This document shows, one piece after another, positions 22,985 through 51,382 of a DNA stretch of 64,000 nucleotides. The notes under the pieces are model-generated. The model searched no databases. It had not been told where the DNA came from and saw only the letters and a program-made list of their open reading frames with translations. Numbering within the stretch: position 1 is the first letter of the stretch; every line of letters starts with the position of its first letter. The position numbers and the translations under genes were made by a program. Origin of the DNA: Natronoarchaeum philippinense (GTDB lineage: Archaea > Halobacteriota > Halobacteria > Halobacteriales > Natronoarchaeaceae); assembly GCF_900215575.1 (NCBI RefSeq), contig NZ_OBEJ01000005.1, positions 1 to 64,000 of the forward strand. Reading direction: 5' to 3'.

Positions 22985-23134
22985 ACCCGTGGAATGTGGT
23001 CGGCGGCTTGTATATGCTGTGGCCGCCGATTCCGGCTCGTTGACGCTTGACATGGCCGGTTCGTGCGAACGCTCCGTCCGGCTCGATGGCTTTCGCACGC
23101 TTTTTGCGTCCGCGGGATCAATGACAGGCAACGA

Positions 23135-24130
23135 ATGATCTCGAAGGGCTGCGAGCAGTGCGCCAACGGGGGGAAGATGGTGCTGTTCGTCTACGGCTAC
23201 TGCGACCAGCGCGACTGCTTTTACTGCCCGCTCGGCGAGAACCGCAAGAACGTCACCGACGTGTACGCCAACGAGCGTAAGGTCGAGTCCGACGAGGACG
23301 TCATCGCCGAGGCTGAGCGAATGGACGCGCTGGGTACCTCGATCACCGGCGGCGAGCCACAGGAAGCGCTGGATCGGACCTGCCACTATCTCGAACTACT
23401 CAAAGACGAGTACGGCGAGGACCACCACACCCACCTCTACACCGGCATCACTGGCGGGCGCGAGAACATGCGCCGCCTCTCGGAGGCCGGCCTCGACGAG
23501 ATTCGCTTCCACCCGCCGTTCGAGCAGTGGGGCGATCTCCACGGCACCGAGTGGGAGGACATCCTCTACATCGCCCGCGAAGAAGGCCTCACACCCGCGT
23601 TCGAGATTCCTGGCATCCGCGCCGAGGAGGAGTTCCTCGAATTCCTCGACGAGGGCGCCGCCGACTTCTGTAACATCAACGAGTTCGAGATGAGCGACGG
23701 CAACTACCGCCGGATGCAAGAGCAGGGTTTCGAACTCAAAGACGGCCACATGAGCGCTGTCGAGGGCTCGCGCGAGGAAATTCTCGACGTGATGGGCGAC
23801 CACGAGCGCGTCTACTTCTGTACGAGCGTGTTCAAAGACGCCGCCCAGCACCGCCGCCGGCTCAAGCGCATGGCTCGGAATATCCGCCGGGAGTTCGACG
23901 ACGTTACCGACGACGGCACGCTCGTCTACGGCAAGACGTGGGTCACGGAGCGGCGTCTCGACGAACTCGGCGTCCCCGAGGAGTTCTACACCGTCAAGTC
24001 CGACCACGTCGAGCTTGCGTGGTGGCTTCTCGAAGAGATGGTCGAGGACGGCGACGTGTCCGAGGGCGAGATCGTCGAGCAGTACCCGACGGTTGACGGC
24101 ACGGTTGTCGAGCGGACGCCGCTGGCGTAG
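23135..24130 (+). CDS. Radical SAM protein with CX4CX2C cluster motif
   Basis: 331 residues from ATG at 23135. The cluster motif reads YCDQRDCFYC (Cys23, Cys28, Cys31), that is CX4CX2C instead of the canonical CX3CX2C, and an extra pair Cys6/Cys9 stands before it. A SAM-binding Gly-rich stretch follows (SITGGEPQEAL, about 70-80) and a TIM-barrel-like alternation continues to about residue 270. The C-terminus ends EQYPTVDGTVVERTPLA. The family is conserved in archaea without an assigned reaction, as far as I can tell. The last 18 codons and the following DNA are duplicated downstream. Confidence 0.85.
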   Translation: MISKGCEQCANGGKMVLFVYGYCDQRDCFYCPLGENRKNVTDVYANERKVESDEDVIAEAERMDALGTSITGGEPQEALDRTCHYLELLKDEYGEDHHTHLYTGITGGRENMRRLSEAGLDEIRFHPPFEQWGDLHGTEWEDILYIAREEGLTPAFEIPGIRAEEEFLEFLDEGAADFCNINEFEMSDGNYRRMQEQGFELKDGHMSAVEGSREEILDVMGDHERVYFCTSVFKDAAQHRRRLKRMARNIRREFDDVTDDGTLVYGKTWVTERRLDELGVPEEFYTVKSDHVELAWWLLEEMVEDGDVSEGEIVEQYPTVDGTVVERTPLA

Positions 24131-46405: not shown

Positions 46406-46903
46406 GTGCGCCGACGCACATACCTCTCCACGCTTGCGAGCGGAACCGCCCTGACCCTCGCCGGTTGTCTCGGCAGTGACGATACGGACGACTCGGACGA
46501 TCCCGACGACTCCGACGGCAACGAGACGGATGCCGACGGGGAAAACACCGACGGACAGAACAACGAATCCGACGGCGATGTTGACGATGGTCCCCAGCAA
46601 CTCGACGAGCCGCTCGACGTCTTAGTTGAAAACGACTACGACGAGGCCTACACCGTCGAAGTTGTAATCACTGACGACTCGGGTGCAACCGTCTTCGAAG
46701 ACGAGGTCGACCTCGAGAACGACGCCTCACAGCGGTTCGAGGATGTCGTCTCCGAACCCGGCACGTACACCGTCGAGGCGACGAAGGCGGGCGACATCTC
46801 TCGGTCGTCCAACTGGGAGGTCGACGCCGATTCCCAAGACGTGTACGTTCACATCGCCGAAAACGGCGAGTACACGGTCGAGGAACGCGACGTCGACGCG
46901 TAG
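46406..46903 (+). CDS. Secreted lipoprotein with acidic linker and small beta domain
   Basis: 165 residues from GTG at 46406. The signal MRRRTYLSTLASGTALTLAGC ends with a lipobox and Cys21; the Arg cluster suits Tat or Sec export. Residues 22-65 are an Asp/Ser/Glu/Asn-rich linker (DDTDDSDDPDDSDGNETD). The C-terminal 100 residues form a small beta-sandwich-like domain (LDVLVENDYDEAYTVEVVITDDSG, RFEDVVSEPGTYTVEATKAG) typical of haloarchaeal Ig-like surface lipoproteins. Ligand unknown. The GTG start is supported by TATTTA about 28 nt upstream. Confidence 0.8.
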   Translation: MRRRTYLSTLASGTALTLAGCLGSDDTDDSDDPDDSDGNETDADGENTDGQNNESDGDVDDGPQQLDEPLDVLVENDYDEAYTVEVVITDDSGATVFEDEVDLENDASQRFEDVVSEPGTYTVEATKAGDISRSSNWEVDADSQDVYVHIAENGEYTVEERDVDA

Positions 46904-47027
46904 CGGTCGCCGTCTACCTATTCACCGCTATTTATCAGCTCGACGCCGTCAGACCGAGAATACTGCCATAGAAGCTCGGCATACTACGGCGGACGCTGTT
47001 CGGAAGTAATCGACGTGAAAATCGGAG

Positions 47028-47102
47028 TGGGTTTGGGCAGATTTGAACTGCCGGCCTCCTCCATGTCAAGGAGGTGTCATAACCAGACTAGACCACAAAC
47101 CC
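47028..47102 (-). tRNA. tRNA-Val (anticodon GAC)
   Basis: 75 nt on the minus strand, without CCA. The 7-bp acceptor GGGTTTG/CAAACCC closes perfectly; anticodon stem CCTCC/GGAGG encloses TTGACAT with anticodon GAC; T stem GGCAG/CTGCC encloses TTCAAAT; discriminator A. Variable loop of five. No intron. The promoter is expected upstream at higher coordinates, where CAATTGTATCC (minus strand, near 47138-47150) is a TATA-like candidate. Confidence 0.95.
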
Positions 47103-47205
47103 GGTCTGGCGCTGTCTTGCTGCACTCACGGATACTCCGGGGATACAATTGAAGGTTTCGGATTCGCCCGCCGTACGTGGGTTCGCCGCACGCGGTCTGA
47201 CGACA

Positions 47206-47233
47206 GGCTTAAGTCATTGTACGAATTTGTACA
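47206..47233 (+). promoter_or_regulatory. trp operon promoter with two TGTAC boxes
   Basis: GCTTAAGTC (about 47207-47215) is the TATA element. Immediately after lie TGTACG (47218-47223) and TGTACA (47228-47233), 10 bp apart, one helical turn. The outer halves also form TGTAC-N6-GTACA, an inverted repeat. TrpY of Methanothermobacter recognises TGTACA TRP boxes and represses trp genes; a similar repressor could bind here between TATA and the start of transcription. Which protein does so is not shown in this window. Confidence 0.6.
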
Positions 47234-47266
47234 TTGCAAGACGAAACCGTTCACTGGTGTCTACTC

Positions 47267-48265
47267 ATGAAGGACTACATCGAGCGCGTCACGGAAGGTG
47301 AGGATCTAACTCAAGATGAAGCGCGTGCGGCCGCGAGCGCGGTGTTCGAGGGCGCAACCGAGGCCCAGATCGGTGCGCTGCTGTCGGCGCTGCGGGCGAA
47401 GGGCGAAACCGAGACCGAGATCGCCGGCTTCGCCGAGGGGATGCGCGACGCCGCGCGGACGATCGATCCCGACCGGCAACCGCTGGTCGACACCTGCGGC
47501 ACCGGCGGCGACGACTACAACACGATCAACGTCTCGACGACGAGCGCGATCGTCGCCAGCGGCGCCGGCGTACCCGTCGCCAAGCACGGCAACTACTCGG
47601 TGTCATCGAACTCCGGCAGCGCGGACGTGCTCGAAGAAGTCGGCGTCAATGTCGAGGCCGAACCGCCCGCTGTCGAGGAAGCCATCGAGGACGACGGCAT
47701 CGGCTTCATGCTCGCGCCCGTGTTCCACCCCGCGATGAAGGCCGTGATCGGCCCGCGCAAGGAACTCGGCATGCGGACGATCTTCAACGTGCTCGGCCCG
47801 CTGACCAACCCCGCGGGCGCCGACGCCCAGATCGTCGGCGTGTACGACCCCGACCTCGTGCCTGTGCTCGCCGAGGCGCTCGCTCGGATGGGCGTCGAGA
47901 GCGCGCTCGTGGTCCACGGCTCCGGAATGGACGAGATCGCGGTCCACGACCAGACGCTCGTCGCCGAAGTCCAGAACGGCGACGTCGAGGAGTACGTGCT
48001 GACGCCCGCCGATCTCGGGCTCTCGGTCCACGACATCGAGGCCGTCGCCGGCGGCACGCCCGCCGAGAACGCCGAGGACATGCGCGGCATCGTCGAGGGG
48101 GAGATCGACGGCGCCAAGCGCGAGATCATTCTGGCCAACGCCGGCGCCGCCATCTACATCGCGGGCGAGGCGGCGTCGCTGGAAGCCGGCGTCGAGGCCG
48201 CTCGCGAGGCGATCGACTCGGGCGCCGCGGCCGAGAAGTTGGCCGACCTCCGCGGGGATGTATGA
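47267..48265 (+). CDS. trpD: Anthranilate phosphoribosyltransferase
   Basis: 332 residues from ATG at 47267 (MKDYIERVTEGEDLTQDEA). PRPP-binding DTCGTGGDDYNTINVSTTSAIVAS, the KHGNYSVSSNSGSADVLEEVG loop, and FMLAPVFHPAMKAVIGPRKELGMRTIFNVLGPLTNPA (read in parts) are complete. It transfers phosphoribosyl to anthranilate, the second step of tryptophan synthesis. An in-frame TTG at 47234 is less likely. First gene of trpDFEG, with a 4-nt overlap to trpF; the upstream promoter carries the TGTAC boxes. Confidence 0.95.
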   Translation: MKDYIERVTEGEDLTQDEARAAASAVFEGATEAQIGALLSALRAKGETETEIAGFAEGMRDAARTIDPDRQPLVDTCGTGGDDYNTINVSTTSAIVASGAGVPVAKHGNYSVSSNSGSADVLEEVGVNVEAEPPAVEEAIEDDGIGFMLAPVFHPAMKAVIGPRKELGMRTIFNVLGPLTNPAGADAQIVGVYDPDLVPVLAEALARMGVESALVVHGSGMDEIAVHDQTLVAEVQNGDVEEYVLTPADLGLSVHDIEAVAGGTPAENAEDMRGIVEGEIDGAKREIILANAGAAIYIAGEAASLEAGVEAAREAIDSGAAAEKLADLRGDV

Positions 48266-48999
48266 GCCCCGATAGCCGCCCGACGCGTGTGAAAATCTGC
48301 GGTTCGACCCACGAGCACGACGTTTCGGCGGCCGTCGACGCCGGCGCCGACGCGGTCGGCGTGATCGCGGACGTGCCGGTCGATACACCCCGCGAGGTCG
48401 ACGCCGAGCGCGCTCGGGAACTGCTCGCTGCGGTCCCGCCGCTCGTCACCGGCGTGCTCGTGACGATGTCCGAGACGCCCGACGATGCGATCGACCTCGT
48501 AGACACCGTCGAACCCGACGCCGTCCAGCTCCACGGCGATCTCTCGCCCGAGGCGGCCGCGACGGTTGCCGACACCGTCTCGGCGTCGACGATCAAGGCG
48601 GTCGACGCCGACGAGCCGGAGCGCTGTCTCGCCTACGACGACGCTGTAGACGCCTTACTTGTCGACTCGGTCGACGCCGAGGGCGGCGGCGGCACCGGCG
48701 ATACCCACGACTGGGAGCGCACGCGCGAGGCCGTCACCGACGCCGAGTCGCCCGTGATCCTCGCCGGCGGGCTGACGCCGGAGAACGTCGCAGAGGCCGT
48801 CGAAACCGTCTCACCGTTTGGTGTCGACGTGGCCAGCGGAGTTGAGCGCGAACGTAGTGAGAGCGATGCACGTCAGGGAGTGGAACGGACTGACGAAGTT
48901 GAGCGTAGCGAGCGCAACGCTGACGGCCGCAAGGACGCCGACGCGGTGGCCCGCTTCGTGGCGAACGCGACCGGCCGACCGGAGGTGCTCGCCCGATGA
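48262..48999 (+). CDS. trpF: Phosphoribosylanthranilate isomerase with in-frame insertion
   Basis: 245 residues. TIM barrel with RVKICGSTHEHD (catalytic Cys13), GADAVGVIADVP, DAVQLHGDLS, LLVDSVDAEGGGGTGDTHDW (Asp135) and PVILAGGLTPENV, followed by PFGVDVASGVE. It isomerises the phosphoribosylanthranilate made by TrpD. Residues about 195-223 (ERERSESDARQGVERTDEVE and after) replace the usual short SSPGVKD loop before the last helix. This block uses poorer codons (agt, gat, gca, act, gtt) than the rest and resembles intergenic GAGCGA-type repeats. The barrel itself is complete. Confidence 0.92.
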   Translation: MSPDSRPTRVKICGSTHEHDVSAAVDAGADAVGVIADVPVDTPREVDAERARELLAAVPPLVTGVLVTMSETPDDAIDLVDTVEPDAVQLHGDLSPEAAATVADTVSASTIKAVDADEPERCLAYDDAVDALLVDSVDAEGGGGTGDTHDWERTREAVTDAESPVILAGGLTPENVAEAVETVSPFGVDVASGVERERSESDARQGVERTDEVERSERNADGRKDADAVARFVANATGRPEVLAR

Positions 49000-50687
49000 G
49001 CGCCGACCTGACGCCCGGACGAGAGAAGTTCGGCCAGCACGTCGCGGACGCGACCCGCGGCGACGACGGAACTGACGCGGCCGTCGTCAGAACGACGGTC
49101 GATCTCGACATCGAGACGACGCCGCTATCGGCCTACGCCGCGCTGACAGGGCGGACGACCGACTGCCCGCCTGCCGAGTACGCCTTTCTGCTGGAGAGCG
49201 CCGGCAAGACGGCGTCCAGCGATCCCGACGGCGCGTTCCGTCCGACGGCGGCCTCGGCCGACCGCCACGCCCGGTTTTCGTTCGTCGGCTACGACCCCGC
49301 CGCCGTCGTGACGGTCGACCCCGACGAGACTGATGTCGAGGTGCTCGGCGACGACCGATACGACGACCTGATCGATCCCACCGACGGCGACGCCACCGAA
49401 ACGCTGCGCTCGGCGCTCCCGGACGCCGAACTCGCGGGCTTCGAGAACGGCGACCGGCGCCAGCTCGACGGCGGCCTCGTCGGCTTTCTGTCCTACGACG
49501 CCGTCTACGACCTCTGGCTCGACGAGGTCGGTGTCGATCACCCCGACTCGCGGTTCCCCGACGCCCAGTTCGTGCTCAACACGAAGACGCTCGTGTTCGA
49601 CGAGGTCGCCGAGACGCTCTCGCTGGTGTTCACGCCGGTCGTCCGCCCCGACGACGATGTCGATGCGATCTACGACGACCTCGTCACCGAGGCCGAGCGC
49701 GTCGCAGAGGTGCTCGACGCCGCTGCCGATCCCGAATGTGGCCCGTTCGTGCGCGACCGGGAGGACGCCGGACCGCAAGCGGAGTACGAGGACGCCGTCC
49801 GCGCGGCCAAAGAGCACGTGCTCGACGGCGACATCTATCAGGCCGTCGTCTCCCGCAAGCGCGAGCTGTACGGGGATGTCGACCCGCTGGGATTCTACCG
49901 AGCGCTCCGAGACGTCAACCCCTCGCCGTACATGTATCTGCTCGGCTACGACGACCTGACCGTCGTCGGCGCCAGCCCCGAGACGCTCGTCTCGGTCGAG
50001 GACGAGACGGTCACTGCAAACCCCATCGCGGGCACCTGCTCGCGCGGGGCGAGTCCCGTCGAGGACCGCCGACTCGCCGGCGAGATGCTCGCCGACGGCA
50101 AGGAACGGGCCGAGCACACGATGCTCGTCGATCTGGCGCGCAACGACGTGCGCCGGGTCAGCGAATCCGGCTCCGTTCGGGTCGACGAGTTCATGAACGT
50201 GCTCAAATACTCGCACGTCCAGCACATCGAGAGCACCGTCACCGGTCGTCTCTCGCCCGACGCCGACGCCTTCGACGCGACGCGGGCGTCGTTCCCCGCG
50301 GGGACGCTCTCGGGCGCGCCCAAGATCCGCGCGATGGAGATCATCGACGACCTCGAACGCGAGGCACGCGGCCTCTACGGCGGCGGCGTGGGCTACTTCT
50401 CGTGGACCGGCGACGCCGACGTTGCGATCGTCATCCGAACCGCGACGATCGAGCACGGCGCCGACGAGGACCGGATCACAGTGCAGGCCGGTGCCGGACT
50501 GGTCGCAGACAGCGATCCGACCGCCGAGTACGAGGAGACCGAGCAGAAGATGGACGGCGTGCTGACCGCGCTCGATCGGATCGAGCGCGACCCGGACGCC
50601 GATGGTGAGGCGACGCCGAAGGATGCCGACGACGGAGCGGCGCCGAAGAACGCCGATGCGACGACCGAACCGGAGGTGAGTCGATGA
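48996..50687 (+). CDS. trpE: Anthranilate synthase component I
   Basis: 563 residues, ATGA overlaps at both ends. The N-terminal TrpE domain (FSFVGYDPAAVVTVD, GGLVGFLSYDAVYD) precedes the chorismate-binding domain: EDAVRAAKEHVLDGDIYQAVVSRK, NPSPYMYLLGYDDLTVVGASPETLV, NPIAGTCSRGAS, DLARNDVRRVSESGSV, FPAGTLSGAPKIRAMEIIDDLE and GGGVGYFSWTGDADVAIVIRTA (in parts), all with conserved active-site residues. It makes anthranilate from chorismate and ammonia supplied by TrpG. The C-terminal 40 residues are an acidic haloarchaeal tail (EATPKDADDGAAPKNADA). Feedback site not judged. Confidence 0.95.
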   Translation: MSADLTPGREKFGQHVADATRGDDGTDAAVVRTTVDLDIETTPLSAYAALTGRTTDCPPAEYAFLLESAGKTASSDPDGAFRPTAASADRHARFSFVGYDPAAVVTVDPDETDVEVLGDDRYDDLIDPTDGDATETLRSALPDAELAGFENGDRRQLDGGLVGFLSYDAVYDLWLDEVGVDHPDSRFPDAQFVLNTKTLVFDEVAETLSLVFTPVVRPDDDVDAIYDDLVTEAERVAEVLDAAADPECGPFVRDREDAGPQAEYEDAVRAAKEHVLDGDIYQAVVSRKRELYGDVDPLGFYRALRDVNPSPYMYLLGYDDLTVVGASPETLVSVEDETVTANPIAGTCSRGASPVEDRRLAGEMLADGKERAEHTMLVDLARNDVRRVSESGSVRVDEFMNVLKYSHVQHIESTVTGRLSPDADAFDATRASFPAGTLSGAPKIRAMEIIDDLEREARGLYGGGVGYFSWTGDADVAIVIRTATIEHGADEDRITVQAGAGLVADSDPTAEYEETEQKMDGVLTALDRIERDPDADGEATPKDADDGAAPKNADATTEPEVSR

Positions 50688-51382
50688 GCGACGCCGGAGG
50701 GCAGACGACCGACGACGATGTCGCCGTCGCCGCGGCGTCCGACGGGCTGCGGGTGCTGTTCGTCGACAACTTCGACTCGTTCACGTACAACCTCGTCGAG
50801 TATGTCGAGGAGGCGTTGCTTGCCTCCTCTGACCACGCAAACTCTGATGATTCTGAAGACGTGCGCGGGCACACCGAAACCAAGGTCGTCCGCAACACCG
50901 CGAGCATCGATGAGATTCGCGCGTTCGATCCCGACGCCGTTATCATCAGCCCCGGACCGGGTCACCCCAAGAACGACCGTGACGTCGGCGTCACGATGGA
51001 CGTGCTGCGCGATCTCAGTCCCGACGTACCGACGCTCGGCGTCTGTCTGGGTCTCGAAGCCGCCGTCTACGCTTACGGCGGGACGGTCGGACGCGCGCCC
51101 GATCCGATCCACGGGAAGGCGTCGTCGATCGACCACGACGAAACGGGCGTGTTCGCGGGGCTCGACCAAGGACTTCGCGGCGGCCGCTATCACTCGCTGG
51201 TCGCCACCGAAGTGCCCGAGTGTTTCGAGGTGACCGCGACGGCTGAGCATGGTGACGAGGAGCTCGTGATGGGGATTCGCCACCGCGAGCACCCGATCGA
51301 GTGCGTCCAGTTCCACCCCGAGAGCGTACTCACTTCGGCGGGCCACGACATCATCGAGAACTTCCTGTCGACGGTGCAGTAG
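50684..51382 (+). CDS. trpG: Anthranilate synthase component II (glutamine amidotransferase)
   Basis: 232 residues. Class I glutamine amidotransferase: VLFVDNFDSFTYNLVEY, ISPGPGHP, the catalytic Cys121 in GVCLGLEA, and His211/Glu213 in VQFHPES. LE after CLG instead of the usual HQ seems normal for haloarchaea. Residues about 44-64 (ALLASSDHANSDDSEDVRGH) form an insertion after the first helix, with A/T-richer codons and an 8-bp inverted repeat at its start; the flanking family text (VEYVEE, then TKVVRNTAS) is intact. Last gene of the trpDFEG unit. Confidence 0.94.
   Translation: MSDAGGQTTDDDVAVAAASDGLRVLFVDNFDSFTYNLVEYVEEALLASSDHANSDDSEDVRGHTETKVVRNTASIDEIRAFDPDAVIISPGPGHPKNDRDVGVTMDVLRDLSPDVPTLGVCLGLEAAVYAYGGTVGRAPDPIHGKASSIDHDETGVFAGLDQGLRGGRYHSLVATEVPECFEVTATAEHGDEELVMGIRHREHPIECVQFHPESVLTSAGHDIIENFLSTVQ

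Follow-up and report, generated by a model that had tools for sequence, protein, structure and literature searches.

The window, by which we mean the whole stretch of 64,000 nucleotides analysed here, carries a trp operon of four forward-strand genes, trpD, trpF, trpE and trpG, each an open reading frame (ORF) with homologues (for the last three, in other trp operons) and each overlapping the next by 4 bp. Its promoter lies within positions 47200-47269 (ACGACAGGCTTAAGTCATTGTACGAATTTGTACATTGCAAGACGAAACCGTTCACTGGTGTCTACTCATG) and holds, besides the usual archaeal promoter elements, three short boxes set whole helical turns apart. The features are as follows (loci counted among 88 trpD upstream regions, described below):

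47201..47205, + strand: BRE-like element CGACA, upstream of TATA; C at -17 from box 1 in 88/88 loci, GAYA nearly invariant
47208..47213, + strand: TATA element CTTAAG of the trpDFEG promoter; TT in 88/88 loci, at a fixed distance from box 1
47218..47223, + strand: TRP-like box 1, TGTACG; TGTAC in 73/88 loci
47228..47233, + strand: TRP-like box 2, TGTACA; +10 bp from box 1; GNNCA in 88/88 loci
47248..47253, + strand: TRP-like box 3, CGTTCA; +30 bp from box 1; probable 5' UTR
47256..47259, + strand: GGTG, 7 nt before the ATG; kept in most loci; a putative Shine-Dalgarno-like site
47267..48265, + strand: trpD, anthranilate phosphoribosyltransferase, first gene of the operon
48262..48999, + strand: trpF
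48996..50687, + strand: trpE
50684..51382, + strand: trpG

Box 1 begins 4 bp downstream of CTTAAG, and the starts of TGTACG (47218) and TGTACA (47228) are exactly 10 bp apart after the TATA element (47208-47213), as the initial annotation had described; both of its boxes are present, but its count was incomplete, since the third box (47248-47253) had been overlooked. It had also left open whether binding would be tandem or palindromic. TGTAC-N6-GTACA is literally present, but because extra boxes fall on the 10-bp grid, a direct-repeat array of near-palindromic six-mers is favoured over a single 16-bp palindrome. With the usual TATA spacing, transcription of trpD would start about 26 bp after TATA, at about 47236-47238, placing boxes 1 and 2 between TATA and the start and box 3 in the 5' UTR; a start upstream of the boxes, which had been named as an argument against their role, was thus not seen, the predicted start falling downstream of boxes 1 and 2. 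Upstream of trpD and divergent from it lies a tRNA-Val (GAC) gene (47027-47102, - strand), and a similar motif (AATTGAAGGTTTCGAAT) stands before trpD in many haloarchaea, which suggests that the tRNA-trpD neighbourhood is conserved in part of the class Halobacteria. Another ORF of the window (46406-46903, + strand) is small and resembles a lipoprotein, having a start of twin-arginine/lipobox type (MRRRTYLSTLASGTALTLAGCLG) and a body that is acidic.

One TGTAC by itself carries no information, because the window contains 90 copies against 39.7 expected. The pair is much rarer: TGTAC-N5-TGTAC has one exact match in the window (three when one mismatch is allowed, against 0.74 expected), and TGTAC-N4-TTGTACAT matches exactly nowhere else in the whole genome than at the trpD promoter. 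Scored with a box weight matrix at spacings 0/10/30, position 47218 reached 26.4, compared with 15.6 for the best of 20 shuffled windows, the window itself being one of the 88 training rows of the matrix. The second-best phased TGTAC-like match in the window (23809-23834) is probably a chance occurrence, because it falls within a coding ORF (23063-24130) that looks radical-SAM-like by eye. The genome's other box-pair matches are located within or close to unrelated genes and were set aside.

To assess conservation we compared 88 trpD upstream regions from many genera, drawn from 80 loci on haloarchaeal contigs plus additional ones from the GTDB family of the window, with the window included and one duplicate removed. 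The block running from the BRE-like CGAYA through TATA to GGTG carries 1.1-1.6 bits per base (box 1 has a mean of 1.58), whereas the 60 bp further upstream are unconserved, at 0.11-0.19 bits per base. TGTACA is the commonest form of box 2 (36/88 loci); at box 3 the commonest form elsewhere is GTACAT, one base further on, with NNNCA found at all 88 loci. Boxes 1 and 3 are offset by exactly 30 bp at 87 of the 88 loci, whereas the third element stands at varying distances from the ATG (6, 7, 8, 10, 12 and 13), and the spacing from GGTG to the ATG ranges over 6-13 nt. Box 3 is therefore in register with the other boxes and not with the start codon, which fits a DNA operator read on one face of the helix. 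Searching 64 genomes from 35 genera with a trpD operator profile yielded one strong match (E <= 1.1e-5) per genome in 63 of them, and all 30 matches that were checked directly precede trpD. The remaining genome, G029, whose profile match was weak, has TGCACT/TGTACA/TGTACA at 0/10/30 and lacks GGTG.

The remaining trp genes, trpCBA, are unlinked to trpDFEG (contigs C2 and C5, respectively, of the window's genome, G000). Their promoter has TGTACA-like boxes at 0/10/20 in 30/30 genomes, with G at positions 1, 11 and 21 invariant and with a distance from TATA to the boxes that differs from that in the trpD promoter. Together with the 88 trpD loci, these 30 trpC loci bear out the conservation before haloarchaeal trp genes that the initial annotation had proposed to look for. 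The three-box pattern TGTNC-N6-GTNC-N5-TGTNC is found again at trpC alone, in 9/9 genomes of the window's family. As patterns of a wider regulon, both this one and CTTA-N-TGTAC-N-GTAC were rejected, for apart from trpD and trpC neither has a place that recurs widely in the family. One CTTACCTGTACCC-TTCAGGTAC-like match to the latter pattern is common to the two genomes of the same genus (G000:C1:177691 and G008:C7:500309). No box array was seen at a second, trpB2-like trpB gene. The pattern scans and the one profile thus yielded few targets, namely both trp operons.

Outside the haloarchaea we scored 38 trp operons, belonging to the phylum's other classes, with a box matrix whose training set was haloarchaeal trpD alone. 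A three-box arrangement with a 10-bp step reached z>2 in 25 of these (mean z 2.80), whereas steps of 6-9 and 11-15 bp did so in 2-4 of the 38; TATACAtcatTGTACAcaatTATACA and TGTACAtaatTGTACAacttAGTACA are examples of such arrays before trpD. A three-box site with whole-helical-turn spacing is thus found before trp genes throughout the haloarchaea and in many of their methanogen relatives. Arrays are absent from families f13, f14, f17, f22, f23 and f27, though TrpY, the candidate regulator treated below, is present there. The TrpY proteins of f14 and f17 are the most divergent (VDRKVV against VDRRVVD), but f13, f22, f23 and f27 also have no array, so that the correlation between array and TrpY type is no more than suggestive.

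A search of the genome for ACT domains led to a 167-aa protein encoded outside the window (G000:C6:22288-22776; locus L141), which matches the NCBIfam family TrpY_fam (NF053754) over residues 2-164 with 237.1 bits against a cut-off of 180. It is the only TrpY-family gene of this genome and, with the conserved boxes, supports the suggestion made from the sequence of the window that a TrpY-like logic may operate in haloarchaea. The description of TrpY as a TRASH/CBS protein has to be corrected, since the family probably combines a helix-turn-helix (HTH) with an ACT-like domain. The ACT and ACT_7 matches of the protein are weak and below the Pfam cut-offs, and the N-terminal HTH is read from one alignment segment, the HTH-like VDRRVVD with its invariant DR pair. 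No convincing relative with a solved structure was found for the protein, and DUF2551 (PF10826), considered as the TrpY family, had no match in the genome. TrpY exceeds the cut-off in 194/194 haloarchaeal genomes (65 genera), with one match each except in one genome, and is present in 118/119 genomes of the phylum sample. Because every haloarchaeal genome sampled encodes it, presence and absence cannot tie TrpY to the boxes, and their co-occurrence carries little weight. The gene is unlinked to both trp operons (contig C6, against C5 for trpDFEG and C2 for trpCBA), and no conserved regulator gene was found among the conserved neighbours of trpD in 80 loci. In the genome of the window trpY immediately follows a hisB-like gene, and at no fewer than four further haloarchaeal loci (L151, L152, L169, L171) the 3' end of a similar hisB-like gene comes before it. 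Inspection of the region before trpY at 31 haloarchaeal loci revealed no box array.

The closest known system is that of Methanothermobacter thermautotrophicus, in which the TRP-box consensus is TGTACA and TrpY is described as blocking TBP at trpE; for this TrpY, binding to the boxes is not sufficient and has to be followed by further assembly, which insertions in the regulatory region prevent, a behaviour that fits the helical phasing of the haloarchaeal boxes. Both systems have TGTACA-like boxes in a trp promoter, a genome encoding a TrpY-family protein, and trp genes that are expressed under a shortage of tryptophan or aromatic amino acids. Unlike in the methanogen, the haloarchaeal trpY is unlinked and neither divergent from nor adjacent to the trp genes, the inspected trpY promoters lack boxes and hence that sign of autoregulation, the trp genes are split into two operons, and the boxes lie downstream of TATA at rigid multiples of 10 bp, one of them in the probable 5' UTR. 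The M. thermautotrophicus TrpY occupies TRP boxes in the stretch from trpY to trpE and is a repressor of trp with tryptophan, while the TrpY of Thermococcus kodakarensis neither binds nor regulates its trp operon, and haloarchaeal homologues are mentioned as unexamined (PMC6737238). The T. kodakarensis Tar (TK0271) likewise regulates an archaeal trp operon but differs in being an activator that is unrelated to TrpY and binds upstream of BRE/TATA independently of tryptophan (PMC6737238). Halobacterium salinarum responds to a lack of aromatic amino acids by inducing all seven ORFs of trpCBA and trpD1FE1G1, and no direct regulator was identified, LrpA2 being only suspected (PMC4162585). TrmB of Haloarcula hispanica acts on the same two operons, but indirectly: both respond to it although no TrmB sites are found there, and 'additional factors' were invoked (PMC10817205). 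The trpCBA promoter of Haloferax volcanii has been described as not tightly regulated (PMC13147458). Our literature search, in which subscription papers were thinly covered so that earlier reports are possible, found no description of this operator.

We interpret the boxes as the operator of a haloarchaeal trp regulon that is bound by TrpY and represses with tryptophan, and give this reading a probability of roughly 0.8; TrpY as the binder, tryptophan as the corepressor and occlusion as the mode of repression are inferred. The TrpY-family protein, a putative HTH-ACT repressor, would bind TGTACA-like boxes on one face of the helix in steps of 10 bp, laid out as 0/10/30 before trpDFEG and 0/10/20 before trpCBA. 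When charged with tryptophan it might assemble from just past TATA, over the start site and into the 5' UTR, its units, joined by tryptophan-dependent contacts, covering the start region and blocking the loading or the escape of TFB/RNA polymerase. A fall in tryptophan would then empty the array and allow both trp operons to be transcribed.

The operator might instead be read by another regulator, for example an Lrp/AsnC-family protein (LrpA2/Trh1) or a TrmB homologue, which we regard as unlikely: the conserved TGTACA is the very sequence that the TrpY of M. thermautotrophicus recognises, and the box array recurs in several classes that encode TrpY. There is nevertheless reason to consider these proteins, for in H. 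salinarum the absence of aromatic amino acids induces LrpA2 (OE2776F) 14.9-fold, and a role in regulating aromatic synthesis was proposed for it (PMC4162585), and the trp operons of Har. hispanica depend on TrmB without TrmB sites nearby, HAH_0923 having been suggested as an intermediate (PMC10817205). Neither study, however, shows direct binding of an LrpA2- or TrmB-type candidate to a trp promoter.

Conservation of the block could also reflect nothing but a core promoter (BRE, TATA and initiator) followed by a Shine-Dalgarno site, with no dedicated regulator. Few columns are indeed as conserved as those of BRE and TATA, and the GGTG close to the start codon is Shine-Dalgarno-like, but this explanation is very improbable, given that box 3 keeps its register with box 1 and not with the ATG, that trpC has the same boxes at another distance from TATA, that G029 retains TGTACA at +10 and +30 where GGTG is gone, and that the 10-bp step is specific in the trp operons of other classes. 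Even less credible is control at the RNA level by a leader, attenuator or riboswitch before trpD. About 30 nt of the probable 5' UTR are conserved, as such control would have it, but the Rfam matches are tRNA only, the leader together with the first codons has no better fold than shuffled sequences (z 0.83), the expected start comes after boxes 1 and 2, and the leader is short and has no ATG for a leader peptide.

For haloarchaeal trp genes, the analysis yields a precisely defined operator with two target operons and a single candidate gene for the regulator. The occurrence outside the haloarchaea suggests that one layout of a trp operator has lasted across several archaeal classes, which would be unusual for a control site at the DNA level. 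It is conceivable, though we advance this tentatively and with more doubt than belief, that the phased operator was ancestral to the Halobacteria and several classes of methanogens and has stayed in helical register ever since, that TrpY forms a tryptophan-dependent row on one face of its DNA, and that selection acts on the register more than on the exact sequence of the boxes. In some non-haloarchaeal relatives (L249, L256, L261, L263 and L265) single TGTACA boxes occur within about 80 bp upstream of trpY, hinting at autoregulation of trpY in these organisms.
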